Below, one piece after another: positions 11,989 through 64,000 of a DNA stretch of 64,000 nt (the first letter of the stretch is position 1; every line of letters starts with the position of its first letter). This DNA comes from Bugula neritina. Taxonomy: Eukaryota; Bryozoa; Gymnolaemata; Cheilostomatida; Bugulidae. The notes below the pieces were generated by a model. It saw only the letters and a program-made list of their open reading frames with translations, did no database searches and was not told the DNA's origin. The DNA lies in contig OZ037765.1 of the NCBI GenBank assembly GCA_964035545.1, forward strand, positions 7,390,698-7,454,697, given 5' to 3'. The position numbers and the translations under genes were made by a program.

Positions 11989-13981
11989 TTAGCTTTCTGC
12001 AGAAGTTTCATTTTCATCAGTTGGAGAAGGTGTAGGCAACTTTGGAGGAATCACGGGAAATTCCAGAGTGCCCCATTGTGTTCTCCTTTCTCCAAGTTCT
12101 TCTTCCAATTCCAACAACCTGTTGAACTTTGCAATACGCTCACCTCTTGCAGGTGCTCCTAACTTAATGAAGCGAGCCTTGCTAGCAACAGCCACATCTA
12201 CCAACAGAGTGCTGTTAGATTCATTCTCTCCTCCGGCCAGCATGACTGTGTTTCCACAATCAATCATCTTTTTAGCACACTCTGTAATATGAGTAACTGT
12301 GTTGCAGCCAGTTAATCTCATTACTAGCCCACTGGTGGCAAACTGGTGCAAATCCAAAGTTTGGTTTTTTAGCAGGCCTGGACGATCATATCCTTTTTCT
12401 GTGATAATCAAACATCGATCAGAAATTTCAGAGCACAATTTGTTCCATGAAGCAGCTTCTTCTGGTCTCACAGGATCTATTATTCCTATGATAGAAGGAT
12501 ATCGATTGCAGAGGTCTGTCCAAAAATCAGCCATGTCTTCTGATGCTTTGAGTGCACCAGTAACAACCTCGTATTTACCTTTTTCATAGTCAAAATAGTC
12601 ATGGGCACTAGAGTTTAGAACAAAGAAAAAATCTTTTCCCATTTCTAAGCCTTGTTGAGATAGGGCTTCAATAATCATATCTAAACCTTGCTCAGGCTTG
12701 TCTAACACAGGACAAAGAGCTCCAAAGTCATTCACATTTCTAGCAGTGACTCCTCCTTTAGCACACAGTAGCTTCATCAAAGCACTATGCAGTTTGATCA
12801 CAGCGGGAATGGCTTCATCGAATTTTATACTTGGACTTGGCACTACCATAAATTCTTTTACGCAATTGCTTTTACCCAAAGCCGCCTTACCACTATGCAG
12901 TATTGTGATGACCGGCAATGGCAAACAGATGGAGTAATCATCTCCACCAGAGCTTTGGATGAGGTGGTCAAAGATAGATGTACCTGCTAAGACAGCACTA
13001 GCAGTGCAGAAGGCCTGAGATAATGCAGTGACAGATGAAGAACCTGGATATAGAACTTCTTTCACTTTGTCAGGCACAATGGCAATCTAAAATCAAAAGT
13101 AAAAACTATTTATGTGAACAAGTTGCCATTTTTATAAAATTCCGCAAACTGCTGTCAAGTGAGAAAGAAATAATGCAGTCAACACATGCAAGCACAGTTT
13201 GAGTTTTTCTAGCCTATAATTTAAATCACTTAATAGAAACAACTGATCCCCAGGTTTAGATATTTTTCAAATGCAAATGTTAGTTTGTTCGGTTGTGTTT
13301 ATAAATTATATCAAATGTTTAGGAAAAATTCAATTTACCTTTGTACTGCTTTTTTAATTTTGTAGTTATACAAAATTTTTTACTTACCTGAGTAGTTTTC
13401 TTTTTACCCGAGCCTTTACCAGACTTTTTGTCTCCTTTTTTATTATCATCAATGGCTGGTTGTGGTGTTGCTTCTTCAGCTTGCCTGTCTTCATTTTTTC
13501 CCAGCAAAGCTAGTCTACGAGTTTCAACAAACGAATACACTTCCTCATCAAGTGCGTGTTGATGGGTAGGTTTTTTCAAAATCAAAATGTTTTGGATTTC
13601 ATCGTTAATCATATTGATAGCATCATCTACTTCAGCTGTTCGACCATCTTCAGTGTCTTTATCTTCATCTTTGCAACTGTCTACTAACTCTGAATCAATG
13701 CAAACACGAGATTCTCCTACTAGTTTTTCATTGTTTCGAACTTTACAGTATAATTTAGTTAGAATGGAGCAGCATCCTTTATTGTCTAACGATCTTATTG
13801 CTACTGCCTTAGAAATAGTAGGTGCCATGGACAAGTCTTCAAAGTACTTGCTGACATATCCGTTAACGTCTTCGGGCTGCACATGAAACATAGCATTTAA
13901 AACTTCTTGCATACGCATTGGAACTTTATTGTTGTTATAATATGCTATTGCTTGATCCTTTAGTTCCTCTTGGTTTTCCAT
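11989..13981 (-). CDS. ENO4: Enolase-4-like protein (ENO4), 2 coding exons
   Basis: Exon 1 is 13981-13388 (198 codons) and exon 2 is 13086-11989 (365 residues plus TAA), joined in phase 0 at CAG|GTAAGT, for 563 residues. Residues about 5-45 (DQAIAYYNNNKVPMRMQEVL and on) match the N-terminal helical region of ENO4. A Lys-rich linker (KKGDKKSGKGSGKKK) ends exon 1. Exon 2 is an enolase fold: KEFMVVPSP, YPSIIGIIDP, and RFIKLGAPARGERIAKFN followed by EEELG. Enolase's KEFM glutamate and the IKxGAP lysine remain. The metal-binding Asp/Glu positions read N or S (LNSSAHDYF), I (GIIDP) and a replaced DDLT loop, and the second active-site Lys is Arg (VMRLTG), so ordinary enolase activity is doubtful. 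In mammals ENO4 is needed for sperm flagellum assembly. The start was chosen at MENQEELK. The same frame stays open upstream to 14230, but that part shows no family resemblance. Confidence 0.92.
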
Positions 13982-15143
13982 TTTTAACCAAGGGGTTTCA
14001 ATTATAACACAACAGATTGAGTAAGTACTAAGAAGACGAATTGAAAACCTCGCAATGTTGTTGCCATGGACGCATTTCCGCAAAGAAGTAGCTTGGCGGA
14101 GGAAGGCTAACTTTTCCAAGTTAGCGAAAAGCTTTCGAGTTGTCCTCTTTATTTGGCAATCTAACCTTTTGCCCGTGCTTCTGGTCGAATAAACCAGAGT
14201 GCCTTTTAAACCATGCTGGTTATGCGTCACCTTTCACCGCCTTCACTCCAGGATTAATCTGGTTATTGCTATTATAAAGTTATTTGTGGGTTTTAGCTTC
14301 AACACAGTACTAGCAGGAAGACTAATAATAATATTAGCGAGTACATAAACATTATCATTATCATTATGATTGTCTCACTCAAGCTAAACTTTTAATTGCA
14401 CACTCGGTCAAAGCGATTCGGATTTCAATTTGAAGATTGAAATTGAATATCCTTCGACTCTCTAAGTGTAAAAACTGAAGTAACCGCTGAAATTTAGACA
14501 AAGAGAGTGTGCTATCTAATCTTCAGTCGTCCGACATTATACAATTATGATTTGGTGATTATTAATGATATTTTTTATAAATATAAATAATAATATAATT
14601 ATAATCATATTTATTGGATGTAATACTAACTAGGTAATCATCAGTAAGACTAACTCTAAGTGAGTAACTTGTAGTTATCGGTGAATGTGATACTGATACT
14701 CAGTATCACATTCACCGATAGTGGTATGTGATAGTGAGAACTTATTTACTCATTTAAACTAATAATAAACTTAAGGTATCTTAATCTTTACTCAATAAAT
14801 TATAAATGATAAGTAAAGGTAAATGTAGTTGCAAAGCCTTTGGGCTTGGCTTTAGACTTAAAAGTAACTGTAAGTGTAAGAGTTTTAAGGATAACTACAA
14901 GTTTGGTGATTTACTGAAGATAAAACTAAAAGTCAATTAAATCAATAAAAATACCTATAGTTATTATGTAATAGTTTTCTGCGTTGAACTACTAATGTGT
15001 GGGTTATGCGTGTGTTGCAAAACTAGAACATACTCTTTGTGTGTTTGAGAGAGAGAATTCAAATTGTAATTCGTGAGAGAATAAATTGTATTAAGAACAC
15101 TTTATAATTAAAATTACATCAACTATCAAGGTAAAATAATATT
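13982..15143. other. Upstream flank of ENO4, otherwise unassigned
   Basis: Expected to hold the ENO4 promoter and 5' UTR. Apart from the inverted repeat at 14676-14720, no gene or repeat was identified. Confidence 0.4.
14676..14720. repeat. Perfect 20-bp inverted repeat with a 5-nt spacer
   Basis: The arms are 14676-14695 and 14701-14720, and each is the exact reverse complement of the other (TATCGGTGAATGTGATACTG as left arm). The spacer is ATACT. It lies about 700 bp upstream of ENO4. It could be the tip of a small fold-back element or a structured site. No flanking duplication was found. Confidence 0.9.
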
Positions 15144-26044: not shown

Positions 26045-26097
26045 AGTCTTTGCAGGTTTGTTTGTTTGTATTTTTCATCAAATAGTAGTTTATGTCA

Positions 26098-29086
26098 TAG
26101 GTTGAAAAATAGAAAAAAATCAGTGATGAGGGTCCATATGCACAATAGCGAAGCTAGTCGAGGTGCTGGACCCAGAGGTAGCAGCCAGCAGAGCCCGCGT
26201 GACGCGGACCCTAAATCAGTGTCAAGCAGGAACTGCTTCAAGGCCACCGCAAACTCACTCCTACTTCGTATCTCCCTCAGATGTTTTGGGAGGGAGTTCC
26301 AGGCATCAGCCATCTGATCGGTAACCTGTCTATGGCCACACGCAGTAGTGGAGAGTGGCAAGGGGAGACTGAGAGGAGCATATCTGGTTGGGTAGGGAGG
26401 AAGGTAGTTAGATGCTAGGCGTAACGAAAATTCAGAATGGGCGAGTAGACAAATTCGAAGTTTATAGAGTTCATAAATTGGTAATATTTTAGATTCTTTA
26501 TATAAAGGTGCTGCGTGAAATCGAGGTGGTTTGTGAAAAATTATACGAAGTAGTCTATTTTGAATAGTTAAAATTTTATCTAGGTAAATGGATGGGGCAT
26601 TGCCACAGGCTTCTAAGCAGTATACAATTTTACTATTTATTAGGCTATTATATAATAGAATTAAAACTTTGCGAGGTAGGAAGGTGGAAGCTACATAGAT
26701 CAGTCCCAGATTTTGGCGGAGTGTATTTCGAAGGTTTTCAATATGGGTAGCCCAATTTAAATTTTTATCAATTGTGATTCCTAGAAATTTGATTGATTCT
26801 ACATTGTTAATTTCGGTGTTGTTTATAAAAAGAGGTTGGGAGATATGAAATTTATTTTGCGGATTCTTAATAATAATGAAAATTTGTCTTTTCGATGTTG
26901 AGGGTTAATTTGTTTGTGAAGCACCAGATCTTTATTCTTTCAAGATTTCTATTTATTGTTTAAATTTCGTCATTAAGATTTTTGCTATGAAAAAAAAGAT
27001 TTGTGTCATCGGCAAATAAGATGGTTTTTTAGAATTGCGCACTTTTAAATAAGTCATTTATATATACTCGGAATGATGTAGGACCTAAAATCGAACCTTG
27101 CGGTACCCCACAACTGCTCTCTAGTGGAGCTGAGATAACATTGTTTAGGAAAACGCATTGAGTTCGGTCACTTAAATAGTGCTGTATTAGTTTGACAGAC
27201 TCGTTAGAAAAATTTACACTACCCTGTTTTTTAGTGAGAATATGGTGGTCTATTGTATCGAAAGCTTTTGAAAAGTCTATAAAAATTCTAAGGACAACCA
27301 AACTCGAGTTTAGGGCGGAAACCGCATTAAAAGCAAATTTAATCAGGGCATCGTGAGTTCCCTTCAATTTTTGGAATCCTTATTGGGAGCTTGATATTAT
27401 TTGTTCATCATACAAATGATTTTGAATTTGGGTGTTGATAACTTTCTCGTAAATCTTTGAAAAAATAGGTAGGATCGATATCGGTCTATAATTATTTAAA
27501 GATAACTTATTTCCTTTATGTTTGTATATAGGCAAAACTTTGGCGCTTTTCATTTTAGATGGTACGATACAGCTGAGGGTAGAGTTGTTTATTATGCGTG
27601 TGAAAGGGGCCGCAAGAAAATCAGCACTATCTTTGACTAGTCTAGGAGCAATTCCATCTAGGCCTTCCGCTTTGTGCTCATTTATATTTTTCATCTGCTT
27701 TAAAACATCATCCACATCAACAATTGAAAATTCAAATTTTTTAAAGTCTTTTGTGAAGTGTGTTGCAGGGCTACTACATATTTCCGGGATTTTTTTAGCT
27801 AGACTGGAGCCAATTTCAGTAAAATATTTGTTAAAAGAATAAGCTATTTCTTTAGAATTTGTGACAACGCTTGAATCTGGTAGCTGGATTTTATTGAGAG
27901 CTTGTTTTGGCTTGTTTTTACGGCCTAAAGCTGTGTTGATGGTGTTCCACAGCTTTCTGGGATCTGATGATTGTTTTGATATTACAAGCTCATAATAATT
28001 TGCCTTGGCTTCTTTTATCAAGCGGGAAACTTTGTTGCGCTTTTTTACATAACAAGACTTCAGTTTAGGGCTGAACGGAAATGATTTATGCTTATTAAAA
28101 AGTACATTTTTTTTCTTGATATGCTTCAACAGATTAGGCGTCATCCAGGGGTTTTTGTACAGTGTTTTGACACTTGGGTCATGCTCCACAATTGGAGCAA
28201 CAGAGTTAAACACTTTGGAGGTTTTTGCTAAAAAGTTATTGTAAGCTGTTTCAACACATGGAATGCTAAAAACCAGCTCTTCCCAATTTGTTTTCCCAAG
28301 TATTTCATGTAATTTTTTTGGTTTATATTTTTTATAACACCTCTTATATACTTGTGTAGACTTTTGATTTTCAAATTTGTCAAAAATGGCGAATACAGGA
28401 AGGTGATCTGACGTGTCTTTTAGAATAGTTCCAGATGTGCTATTGTGAGAGTAGAAATTAACTAGGATGTGATCGATACATGTTTGAGAAGTTTCTGAAA
28501 TGCGAGTGGGAACAGTAATCAGGTTGTAAAAGTTATATTGGTGAATGATATCAAGGTAGTCGGCTGAATTAGGACTGAAGGTGTTAATGTTAAGGTCACC
28601 AGTGATGATATGATCATGCCTCTCTATTTCCCGGGTGGCCATATACAGGTTTAGATCTGTAAGAAACCTACCGACATCCGACCCTGGAGAACGATAGATA
28701 GATGTAAGAATGAGCGACCTCGCACCAGTCCCAGCAATCCTCAACGACACAACCTCTGGCCAGCGAGCTCCACTGGAAACATCTCCGTGACCGCCAGGCT
28801 ATTATGCACGTAGACCCCGCGCCTCCACATCTAGTAGGACGACTTTCACCTACAAATACATAATTGGGAATCGGAAAGAGTGTTGGTAGTCATATAAAAA
28901 AGTTTCACTTGAGCATATAATGTGAAAAGGGGATTTGATTTCTGACAACAGTTCAAGAAGATGATTAAAGTTTTTTTTGATGCTGCAAATATTACAATGT
29001 ATAATACGAAAACCTTTACTTATATTGTTATTAAATGAATCAACAGTATAACTCATACAGTCAGGAATAGCAGCCATATCGAACAA
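26098..29086 (-). pseudogene. LINE ORF2: AP endonuclease and reverse transcriptase, frameshifted
   Basis: Pieces in order on the minus strand. 29086-28850 is the endonuclease start (IIHCNICSIKKNF, then ICSSETFL). About 28830-28745 reads RGVYVHNSLAVTEMF in another frame. 28750-27380 holds IYRSPGSD, ITGDLNIN, CIDHILVN, SDHLPV and the RT entry KGNKLSLNNYRPISILP. 27367-27029 holds FIDFSKAFDTIDHH and GVPQGSILGP. After a frameshift, TILFADDTNLFF (near 27000) supplies the catalytic FADD. 26361-26095 encodes the C-terminal tail (QMADAWNSLPKHLR). At least three breaks separate these blocks. Catalytic residues are present but not in one frame, so the protein cannot be made from this copy. Confidence 0.88.
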
Positions 29087-29131
29087 AAAATTTTTTACAA
29101 CTTTTTAAGAAAGATTAGTTGATTACGGCTT

Positions 29132-29836
29132 CTAGCTGCTATTCTTTAATGCAATCAATTCACATTCATTTTTTATGCGGATAGCATTTGAGTTTTGATC
29201 TTCACGTATATAAACTTTCTGGTGTACAGTCCATACAAATTTGTACTGAAATTCTTCCTTAAGCTTTCTAGCCTTGTAAAACAGATTATGGGTTTCAAAA
29301 GAGAGAAGTTCATTTACATATACTTTGTAAGAACAATTCCGGAATCCTAAGGAGGCTGCAGTGATATCGTGCTTCTCTTTAAAAGCAGATAAGAAAGCAT
29401 CTCTTTTGTGGCTTTGCATAAAACGGATAACAATAGATTTCTTGCTTTTTTTTCGATAGGCTAGGTCAATGTTGTTATTGTCCATAGATATCGTTTTCAG
29501 CTCAGCCAATTTAAGCACAATATCATTAAGCTTTTCCTCAGAATCGTGAGGTATGCCTTGGATCTCGATTGATTTTTGCAAAGAGTTTAGTTCAAGATTG
29601 TGAACTTTTTTTACTGTCGACGGGAATTCTCTTCTTAATACTTTGACTTTGTCCTTGAGTTCACCAACCTCTTCTGTGTGGTACTCCAAACTGTGCTCGA
29701 TGCTATTTACTTTTGTCTCAACGGTTTCGATTCTTTTGTTAATAGATTTCAGTCCGGCAAGGATTTGTTGAAACATTGCTGTAGTGTCGGTTTCAGCCTC
29801 TGAGCCAGTTCGTTGCTTTCCCTTTGGAGGAGCCAT
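29132..29836 (-). CDS. LINE ORF1 protein, intact frame
   Basis: 234 codons, ATG to stop. The N-terminus is basic and low-complexity (MAPPKGKQRTGSE). A heptad-like coiled coil follows at about residues 20-90 (LKSINKRIETVETKVNSIEH). The C-terminal half resembles the RNA-binding RRM/CTD arrangement of L1/CR1-type ORF1 proteins (KKSIVIRFMQSHKRDAFL; YVNELLSFETHNLFYKARKL; YKFVWTVHQKVYIR). ORF1 proteins coat the element RNA and act as nucleic-acid chaperones. It lies directly upstream of ORF2. The open frame suggests a younger insertion than the 15-24 kb repeats. Confidence 0.85.
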   Translation of the reverse strand: MAPPKGKQRTGSEAETDTTAMFQQILAGLKSINKRIETVETKVNSIEHSLEYHTEEVGELKDKVKVLRREFPSTVKKVHNLELNSLQKSIEIQGIPHDSEEKLNDIVLKLAELKTISMDNNNIDLAYRKKSKKSIVIRFMQSHKRDAFLSAFKEKHDITAASLGFRNCSYKVYVNELLSFETHNLFYKARKLKEEFQYKFVWTVHQKVYIREDQNSNAIRIKNECELIALKNSS

Positions 29837-61545: not shown

Positions 61546-63533
61546 ATGGCTAAGCTGGATGTAGACAATCACTTGATGATAGTTGGCAACTTCGGGAAAT
61601 ACCAATGGCTGCAGCTGCTGCTCACAGGCATGATGGTTGCATGCTTCGGGATGCAGATGTTCGTCTCTATCTTTTCTCACGGCACACCAGATTACAAGTA
61701 AGTGAAATAGTCTATTTATAATTGGTATAATTGGTATTAAGTTGCAGTTGTCATCCCATATAGAAATACAGTTTTCAATACAATAATATAACTTGAGAAT
61801 AATTATAGAGTTGATGTTTGAAGAATATTCCGCTACCAACATCTTAATAATATATACAACTTCCTAAAAGCACAAGTACTACATAGCTGATTGAACTGTA
61901 TTCAGTTGATGTTTACTTACGCTATGCTGTGTATTTTTTGTTTTGCTACAAAAACGTTCAATTTAAAACGTTTTATATTGTTTTCACTATTTTTTCAGAT
62001 GCCAATACGCGGAGAACCTTAACAACTCAAAGGATTTCAATTCTACTCAAAGTATAGCTGTTGATGCTTGTAATGTACAAGTTAATGGCGAGTGGTGCAC
62101 GAAGTTTGACTATGACAAGAGTATGTTTATGTCTACCATAGTTACAGATGTGAGTATATAATGCAATTTTATATGGTTTCTTGTCAAAATAATATTGTAT
62201 GGCGTATGCTTTGTGCATATAGTACTTCAATCAATGATGACACGTGAAACTACATGTTATATTTATAACACTGCATACTTTTGATACTAAAAACTGTTTA
62301 TAAATGATTCTAACTATATTTAAACTATAATTTTTTTACTATAATGTCTTATACATATCACTATACATATGTGATATAAAATCATTTTATTGAATTTTCA
62401 ATACGAATAATTATATATTACATTATAGACTGCCATATACTGCACAGAACAATAAATTCTAAAGAATAAATTGACGTAGTATTATAATATTAAAATAGCA
62501 TAATATAATGTTGCGCATTATATAAAGTATAAATATTCCCCATATAACTATTATTATTTTATACTAATATATTATACCGCTGATCAATTACTCATATTAT
62601 AGACCTATTATAATTTCTCTCCTTAACTTATTTTACTAATATTATTTTCAGGTGTGTTACATTTTACTATTATACATCATTATATACTATCCTTGCAATG
62701 CTTGTCTGTATTATTATAATAAGGCACGCATGATCTAGAATGCCATTGACAAAATATTTTTGACAATGCATTAGCTTCAAATACAACTTCAGCGCTAATT
62801 TTAGTTTGATTTGGTCTGCGATAGGAAACATTATGTTACCATAGCAAATATGGCTTGGATGGCCAGTGAAGGAGTTGGAGCTCTTCTAGGTTCCTACATT
62901 AGTGACAGGTGATGTAACAATGTTTGCAATCAGCATCGATGAAAAGAGGGGCAATTTTATAAACAACATTAATATAAATACTTTGTTGAAGGATGTGAAT
63001 TATCAATGTAATTTAATGTGAGGTGACATGGCTTTGCATTGCATAATATTTCAACTCCAAACCTAGAGGCTGTAATTTGTGAAACTGAGTATTGTAGTTG
63101 CGAAACATATAGAAAAATATTTCTTATTTAAATTACAACATTAGGGGTATCACTATAGGCTGAGTTGTGTAATGGTACCAGAGGCTATTCTTATTTTAAC
63201 CTTGTTGAAGCTAAAAAACATCAATACTGGTGATTTATACTCTGAAATTTTGTAACAGGTGCTGTTAAAAACTCCATATTTCAATATTGCTAAAACATGT
63301 TTGTGGTAGTTTTGTATGTTTTGTTTTGCTGCCTTCGATTGATAAAATGTTGAATGCAACATAAAATGGAAAATCTTAAATAAGATTTTCCATTTTATGT
63401 TGCATTCAACATTTTATCAATCCAACATCAAAAGTTTTTGTTCATTTCTGTTTGGTACTTTTTCAATGATTTACTACCAAACATTTCATACAAAAACATA
63501 GAATGTTCAAAAAAAAGAAAAAAAAAATATATA

Positions 63534-63586
<53 letters not shown>

Positions 63587-63776
63587 TAGCATTTTGCAAT
63601 GCTCATGACTCCTAGGTGACCCCTAGAGTCACTTGAGCACTCTGGCTTGAGTTTACACACCTTTTAAATATGCTTTAGTAAAACTATAAGTTTTACTATT
63701 GCGAAGGTGTGGGCCATGGTACTCTGTTCTGTGCTGATGAGGGGACAAATTCCGAAACAGCTGCTGTCCACAGATT

Positions 63777-63834
<58 letters not shown>

Positions 63835-64000
63835 CACCATATCATCATCATGATTTACAGATATGGGAGAAAGCCAATGGTCATAGCAACATATCTAACG
63901 ATTGGAGTGTTTGGCAGTGTGACCGCCTCCTCTGTTAACCTCACCATGTACATCATCATACGGTGTATCATGGGATTTGTCTGCTTTGCTGGATTTTCGG
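61546..64000 (+). CDS. Second SLC22-type transporter, 5' part only
   Basis: Exons: 61546-61697, 61999-62149, 62805-62908 and 63861 to the window edge, giving about 182 residues. It starts MAKLDVDNHLMIVGNFGKYQ, parallel to MARQLDVNQYLTVVGGIG in the gene at 48269. The extracellular loop has NNSK, NST and several cysteines. FDLVCDRKHYVTIANMAWM matches FNLVCDRKH of the first gene, and SYISDRYGRKPMVIA is the MFS loop 2-3 signature. Intron positions and phases match the first gene, and exon 3 is 104 nt in both, so they are tandem paralogs. The loop sequences have diverged strongly. The rest of the gene lies outside the window. Intron 3 carries the hammerhead motif and the 42-bp inverted repeat. Confidence 0.9.
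63069..63130. repeat. Dispersed repeat, related to 60478-60540
   Basis: Shares GTGAAACTGAGTA and GTTGC(A/G)AAACATATAG in the same order and spacing with 60478-60540. It lies in intron 3 of the second SLC22 gene. Confidence 0.45.
63337..63422. repeat. Perfect 42-bp inverted repeat with a 2-nt spacer
   Basis: The arms 63337-63378 and 63381-63422 are exact reverse complements, separated by AA. The left arm begins GATTGATAAAATGTTGAATG. It lies in intron 3 of the second SLC22 gene. A palindrome this long and perfect is unstable in most genomes, so it is probably recent. Confidence 0.95.
63545..63584. repeat. (TA)n microsatellite, left of the hammerhead segment
   Basis: About 40 bp of TA preceded by a short GT run. 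Together with 63780-63832 it brackets the 195-bp segment that holds the hammerhead motif. Confidence 0.95.
63722..63779 (+). ncRNA. Type I hammerhead ribozyme motif
   Basis: The core CTGATGA is at 63734-63740 and GAAA at 63754-63757, with the cleavage triplet GTC at 63766-63768. Helix I pairs TCTGTG (63728-63733) with CACAGA (63769-63774). Beyond an internal loop, CTC (63722-63724) pairs with GAG (63777-63779). Helix II is GGGG...TTCC (63741-63753), two G-C and two G-U pairs with an ACAAA loop. Helix III is ACAG/CTGT (63757-63760 with 63764-63767) around a 3-nt loop. Helix I is the open one, hence type I. Short helix III forms like this are known from Penelope-like elements and small animal retrozymes. 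Self-cleavage would fall after 63768. Activity is inferred, not shown. Confidence 0.8.
63780..63832. repeat. (AT)n microsatellite, right of the hammerhead segment
   Basis: About 53 bp of AT directly after the hammerhead motif and about 30 bp before exon 4 of the second SLC22 gene. Confidence 0.95.

Follow-up and report, generated by a model that had tools for sequence, protein, structure and literature searches.

Retrozyme copies with hammerhead motifs joined to (AT)n tracts in the genome of the bryozoan Bugula neritina

The 64,000-nucleotide stretch of Bugula neritina DNA analysed here (the window; assembly GCA_964035545.1, contig OZ037765.1, positions 7,390,698 to 7,454,697, forward strand) closes on an SLC22-like gene. 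Two of its exons lie on the plus strand at 62845..62908, with the start inferred by splice-site reading, and at 63861..64000, where the window ends. Joined together, these exons matched 18 solved sequences at E ≤0.01, all of them SLC22 members or OCT1, OCT2 and URAT1, and SLC22A6 was the best match (E 2.3e-5). The initial annotation had placed a hammerhead ribozyme within an SLC22 intron. The flanking exons bear out that placement, and the ribozyme is oriented along the sense strand of the gene. The same intron holds a near-perfect inverted repeat at about 63337-63420, just upstream of the element described below, with arms of ~41 bp and a two-base centre; it was found by reading, and a palindrome script found no even-centred one. 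Elsewhere, an enolase 4 gene occupies 11989-14230 on the minus strand, with long frames and few introns visible; the best named relative of its frame comes from the bryozoan Watersipora subatra (62%), and another relative reaches 96%.

Direct reading of the sequence at 63722..63779 (plus strand) reveals a type I hammerhead ribozyme (HHR) motif in which all invariant core positions occur in order and three helices form, open at helix I. Helix I pairs TCTGTG (63728-63733) with CACAGA (63769-63774) and is extended by an outer segment, CTC (63722-63724) with GAG (63777-63779). The core CTGATGA (63734..63740) is followed by helix II and its loop (63741..63753), where GGGG (63741-63744) faces TTCC (63750-63753). 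The block at 63754..63768 comprises GAAA (63754-63757), helix III (ACAG 63757-63760 with CTGT 63764-63767, closed by a CTG loop) and C63768 as H17, so placed that cleavage is predicted at 63768^63769. Helix I, helix III and this last block are backed by covariation as well as sequence, and the remaining parts by sequence. This layout matches what had been annotated, including the outer part of helix I and a weak helix II with two G-U pairs. Helix II of the genome copies listed consists of three G-C pairs and one G-U. All 100 listed matches (of 527 core sites) carry C where the window copy has T63751, which makes the window copy a variant with a weakened helix II.

The motif sits near the 3′ end of an element at 63584..63783 (plus strand), bounded on its 5′ side by an (AT)n tract at 63544..63584 and fused at its 3′ end to a second tract at 63780..63832, with ATAT in common. 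Only three (AT) tracts of at least 14 bp occur in the 64-kb window, two of them flanking this element, and 0.4% of window bases lie within 10 bp of such a tract. The initial annotation had described a segment of ~195 bp between two (AT)n tracts and read it as a retrozyme-like element or a terminal piece of one. The segment is as described and is a 5′-truncated part of a 271-bp unit, running from unit position 87 to 271 and then from 1 to 15. Unit numbering starts at the predicted cleavage site of a reference unit taken from locus L010, to which the window copy (L048 2282-2481) is 99.0% identical.

Curated models did not recover the motif. No Rfam HHR model, RF00163 included, reached threshold on the window HHR at gathering score or at E 10, and a genome scan with RF00163 gave a single match below the cut-off (25.4 versus 34 bits; 73 of 15744 first candidates scored), at locus L050. 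The initial annotation had named the lack of a covariance hit above threshold among the outcomes that would count against it, and on this point the search went against it in both window and genome. The best Rfam match was RAGATH-1-hammerhead (RF03152), which resembles the window HHR in that core and helices align in register and differs in that its 19.1 bits fall short of the 56.3-bit gathering score; low-E matches in the permissive search (E 10) were mostly AT-repeat artefacts. Folded alone, a 64-nt stretch containing the HHR was not above shuffles (z 0.55); the 196-nt segment was more stable than shuffles (z −4.0), as was the complete unit folded as a circle (−99.6 kcal/mol, z −8.5 against 100 shuffles from our own approximate shuffler). 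Because the Rfam scores fall below threshold and the lone 64-nt fold is unremarkable, the case for the HHR rests on its relatives in the genome. A model built from the genome's own HHRs (R1) scores the window motif at 57.3 bits, with the window copy itself among the 12 training rows. The intronic copy may self-cleave, though its helix II is weaker than usual and a GCUG/CAGC hairpin that breaks the hammerhead is calculated to beat the HHR fold by 2.9 kcal/mol in the family sequence and by 2.8 in the window copy. With its single hammerhead, the window copy could at most cut the host intron RNA and could not release a unit alone.

Relatives of the motif are abundant. The 35-nt HHR core occurs at 527 sites with ≤3 mismatches in this 216-Mb genome (215.8 Mb, 295 contigs), and the same pattern read backward occurs at none, so the core is not a chance match. 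The 196-bp segment itself has at least 57 matches (40 of 682 first candidates scored). To evaluate pairing, we aligned 12 HHRs from the retrozyme and from the Penelope-like elements described below, a comparison of families within one genome rather than of species. Scored on a structure hand-written from these same sequences and on a trimmed alignment in which rows R3 and R4 are decayed copies, 92.3% of cells pair versus 62.1% in shuffles, the covariation score is 0.791 versus 0.244 (slid versions reach 0.245), and 45 cells are changed on both sides versus 15.5; none of 500 shuffles reaches the observed value on any of these three measures. The other two of the five measures fell within shuffles, namely pairs changed on both sides (10; 180/500) and further pair types (20; 105/500). 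Core positions carry 3 substitutions in 790, compared with 188 in 14897 outside helices (p 0.012), which offers weak support for a ribozyme since array units are not independent. Other copies (the 527 core sites) and compensatory changes (in the 12 HHRs), whose absence the initial annotation had named as counting against it, do exist. Taken on sequence evidence, the hammerhead observation in the window is confirmed, and its assignment as a type I HHR whose helix III is short, of the sort found in Penelope-like elements and animal retrozymes, is supported by copies, arrays and covariation.

Copies of the element occur both as monomers and as head-to-tail arrays with 271-bp spacing, which answers the expectation of tandem or dimeric copies. 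Monomers and short arrays make up most of the mapped segments, the largest array among 40 mapped loci containing 3.96 units. The 271-bp unit has a GC content of 0.43, and its longest open frame, read on the repeated unit, is 45 codons. These values, together with a type I HHR, fall within the range for metazoan non-LTR retrozymes (a non-coding unit of 150-450 bp with GC under 45-50%), as do the tandem copies from dimers up and the HHR-bearing Penelope-like elements in the same genome. The retrozyme unit has no open reading frame with reverse transcriptase and GIY-YIG domains of the kind that defines a Penelope-like element. Judged by such testable DNA features, and with its HHR below the Rfam threshold, the element is a metazoan-type non-LTR retrozyme, a known kind, and the retrozyme-type interpretation in the initial annotation is accordingly supported at the level of sequence.

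Variants shared among units offer a view of how arrays form. All three full units of L009 have G>T at unit position 37, a change that 1 other segment carries among 55 covered. A deletion at 229, found in 0 others of 71, is common to two units of L096 (the same locus as L012), both units of L097 carry changes at 149 and 190 that occur nowhere else, and the array units of L093 also have rare variants in common. Arrays L014 and L015 showed no variant common to their units, and L011 was not uniform; L012, L027 and L030 were excluded from the tally as duplicates of longer loci. A second subfamily, with a 272-bp unit in L093 and 13 differences common to both L082 units, changes one helix II pair from G-U to G-C. 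Unit-shared rare variants would fit several turns on one circle, and DNA duplication would look alike. The latter belongs to an account without any RNA intermediate, in which unequal crossing over, together with recombination between (AT)n tracts, has spread the family as a tandem satellite. Head-to-tail arrays with an exact 271-bp period suit that account, as do the within-array variants. Most mapped segments, however, are single and dispersed; their 3′ end is fixed while their 5′ ends vary, the signature of reverse transcription from one start, and a monomer has no long internal repeat for exchange. We regard a satellite origin as very improbable. One locus, L096 (C9:2731500-2741000), contains a Penelope-like family C element and a subfamily II retrozyme as a composite repeated three times at ~2.58 kb spacing, an inserted pair that later underwent joint amplification.

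Integration junctions of the retrozyme are nearly uniform on one side. Among 43 segments mapped at the 40 loci, which are the best matches to the window copy and hence favour young copies, 42 have their 3′ end joined to (AT)n, mostly right after GAGATAT, ~15 nt past the predicted cleavage site. The remaining segment is one of a pair in L033 (C5:15716560-15717760), a locus with two retrozyme fragments in head-to-head orientation about an (AT) tract, their inverted flanks being identical. An independent anchor count on the same 40 loci found 41 (AT)n ends and 15 internal junctions. Genome-wide, the anchor has 592 sites at ≤1 mismatch, of which 365 lead into (AT)n, 62 into a next unit and ~165 into neither class. 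The 5′ ends vary, and 16 of 43 fall at unit 12, which is the same ATAT one turn back (nominal binomial p ~1e-18, for a position picked after seeing the data); 49 such full-turn 5′ ends joined to (AT)n occur genome-wide. As read from the segment mapping, ~38 of the 43 5′ ends lie in AT repeat, and the (AT)n on both sides of these segments masks any target site duplication. A full-length monomer measures 1.01 units, from ATAT to ATAT.

A monomer of this extent would also be expected from a SINE-like linear RNA that runs from the ATAT at unit 12 to the ATAT at unit 15 and is copied at (AT)n, with the hammerhead incidental or serving to trim ends. Arrays would then form when the enzyme jumps from the 5′ end of one RNA to the 3′ end of the next via the ATAT overlap, or from an uncut multimeric transcript. 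Penelope-like insertion in vitro without need of HHR cleavage, described in PMC11167929, is in keeping with such a route. A linear RNA gives no account of the hammerhead or of its place beside the end, nor of the low number of core substitutions cited above with its non-independent units, and rare variants present in all units of an array suggest a single template in preference to several RNAs. We consider the linear route unlikely. A template RNA continuous across the HHR junction is most likely a circle made by the HHR, although an uncut multimer would leave the same sequence pattern.

We used a LINE from the window as a control for the (AT)n junctions. This element lies at 26056-29836 on the minus strand and has two recognizable frames, one retrotransposon-like (29132-29836) and the other a broken reverse transcriptase frame (27380-28750). 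Its 3′ part has 28 genome matches (28 of 28 candidates scored) and ends in (AAAC)n; apart from the window copy, 25 ends fall at one base, 1 is three bases short and 1 lies elsewhere. Searching genome-wide for its exact 12-base end, a count that omits decayed ends, found no (AT)6 within 30 bp. The control represents one LINE family.

Penelope-like elements of the same genome show a different picture from the LINE. The sub-threshold RF00163 match at L050 is a Penelope-like HHR adjoining the C-terminus of an element, whose frame we take to be Penelope-like from its C-terminal motif. The assignment follows from this motif and from P0121, a relative of family B that carries PF01541 (GIY-YIG) and PF26215. 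Searching with the L050 C-terminus returned at least 150 matches in several families (150 of 505 candidates scored), with open frames of 706 aa in family B and 704 aa in family C. Pfam gave no name to any of the three Penelope-like frames, and a PDB search with one of them gave no match; a genome search with PF01541 found a single frame of 87 aa, presumably the SLX1 nuclease. Families A, B and C each have their own minimal HHR near the 3′ end. An (AT)n tract of six repeats or more follows 41 of 47 distinct C-termini, at two clustered distances in each family; 3 of the 6 without (AT)6 are cut off where the fetched stretch ends, and the 47 rows omit identical 240-nt contexts, including L062 and L064 (no (AT)6 within 900 nt). 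The two tail lengths in A, B and C agree with the expectation that some Penelope elements have a tail and others lack one. Of 23 long-tail ends, 17 are joined to (AT)n, 4 continue into other sequence, 1 meets (TG)n and 1 meets a TA run of lesser length; a search pattern for the short tail of family B had no match. In L052 and L075, long-tail ends meet (TG)n or a short TA run beside GC/CA repeats in place of long (AT)n. Thus, in at least three Penelope-like families here, a minimal HHR occurs together with 3′ ends that join (AT)n. Head-to-head pairs of Penelope-like copies occur at L086, L088, L092, L093, L095 and L098, with nearly all 3′ ends at or near (AT)n. At C2:29948811-30029933, ten family A matches at ~9-kb spacing on one strand look like a long-unit tandem array.

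Retrozymes and Penelope-like copies also share neighbourhoods. Retrozymes lie in AT tracts adjoining Penelope-like copies at L082, L088, L093 and L095-L099 (L088 and L095-L099 having been chosen because the two were close), and diverged retrozymes adjoin family A in L050 and L071. In an unselected count of 85 clusters, drawn from 100 listed of 527 retrozyme sites, against 150 listed Penelope places, we found 3, 3, 3 and 4 clusters within 1.5, 3, 6 and 20 kb, compared with 0.15, 0.26, 0.50 and 1.45 expected (p 0.0002, 0.003, 0.013 and 0.054), an excess that fades by 20 kb. The retrozyme and families A, B and C have no common sequence beyond 10-16-mers, and for want of similarity we rejected a reading of the retrozyme as a Penelope pLTR fragment. 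This lack of common sequence would suit copying of the retrozyme by another reverse transcriptase, such as a LINE, with both kinds of element merely ending up in (AT)n, and just one LINE family was looked at. That LINE has (AAAC)n ends away from (AT)6, however, whereas the Penelope-like families share both the joining to (AT)n and a 3′-proximal HHR. Copying by a LINE or similar enzyme therefore seems to us quite unlikely. Since retrozyme and Penelope-like 3′ ends are alike fused to (AT)n and the ends of the control LINE are not, we infer that a Penelope-type enzyme acts on a junction-spanning RNA.

Motif, copies, arrays, junctions and the parallel Penelope junctions are read from the DNA, and on them we build a proposal for cleavage, circularity, enzyme and order of steps. 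We think it probable that the retrozyme is copied by way of circle-making, a Penelope-like enzyme and (AT)n priming across the ribozyme junction. The detailed version, to which we give even chances, has a Penelope-type enzyme prime a nicked (AT)n on the ATAT past the junction of a circular RNA, travel one or several turns and close by the same microhomology. Genomic copies would be transcribed, and tandem hammerheads would cut out 271-nt monomers, to be closed into circles by ligation. After nicking of an (AT)n tract by a Penelope-like enzyme, the (AT) 3′ end would anneal to the ATAT of unit 12-15, a short way downstream of the ribozyme junction, to prime reverse transcription on a template that spans this junction without break. 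One turn would lead back to ATAT and close on the other (AT) end, yielding monomers of 1.01 units; more turns would yield 271-bp arrays, and early stops would leave 5′-truncated copies such as that in the window. The covariation measures within shuffles and the non-homologous start of an anole element weigh slightly against this reading of (AT)n priming on a circle. The anole element is reported to start at a non-homologous site; the retrozyme here differs in that its ATAT matches the (AT)n target.

Earlier work provides a context for these junctions. In PMC11167929, AT-rich DNA is cut by a Penelope-like protein that begins reverse transcription at an internal point of its RNA, and HHR cleavage is dispensable for insertion in vitro. 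PMC3846280 reports a preference of Penelope elements for targets of simple, AT-rich sequence and for head-to-head repeats. According to PMC7229834, circular RNA is produced by animal retrozymes, and Penelope-like elements are a strong candidate partner; a 2020 review states that metazoan retrozymes have no motif from which an autonomous partner could be deduced (PMC7761336). The junctions supply such a clue, consisting of a fixed 3′ end past the ribozyme junction that is fused to (AT)n as in at least three Penelope-like families, and they make the priming step of retrozymes directly testable. If the proposal is true, the unknown partner of animal retrozymes would be named, the purpose of the hammerhead would be a template continuous across its own end, and (AT)n junctions could serve as a genomic test for circular templates. 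Among titles and abstract openings of the open-licence literature, we found nothing like this junction arrangement, which is no proof that none is described, and the words 'microsatellite' and 'AT-rich' do not occur in the main text of PMC7229834. The integration pattern, and the junction evidence that would favour (AT)n-primed, Penelope-type copying across the ribozyme junction, form the new content of this study.

Compared with known systems, plant LTR retrozymes are alike in being non-autonomous and HHR-bearing and in their presumed use of circular RNA; they differ in having a type III HHR in LTRs, a PBS, a PPT and 4-bp target duplications (PMC7229834, PMC7761336). Penelope-like elements with minimal HHRs, including families A, B and C, resemble the present retrozyme in a 3′-proximal HHR whose helix III is short, in a 3′ end beyond the HHR (the 'tail') and in an AT target (PMC11167929, PMC3846280); the retrozyme differs in lacking an open reading frame and any recognizable common sequence. 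Features in common with the metazoan non-LTR retrozymes described by Cervera and de la Pena (2020) are a type I HHR, a non-coding unit of ~170-400 nt and low GC, several tandem copies, no LTR, PBS or PPT, and occurrence beside Penelope-like elements with minimal HHRs (PMC7229834). Set against that description, the Bugula neritina retrozyme is distinguished by the prevalence, among mapped segments, of monomers and short arrays that lie in (AT)n and whose single fixed 3′ end falls beyond the ribozyme junction.
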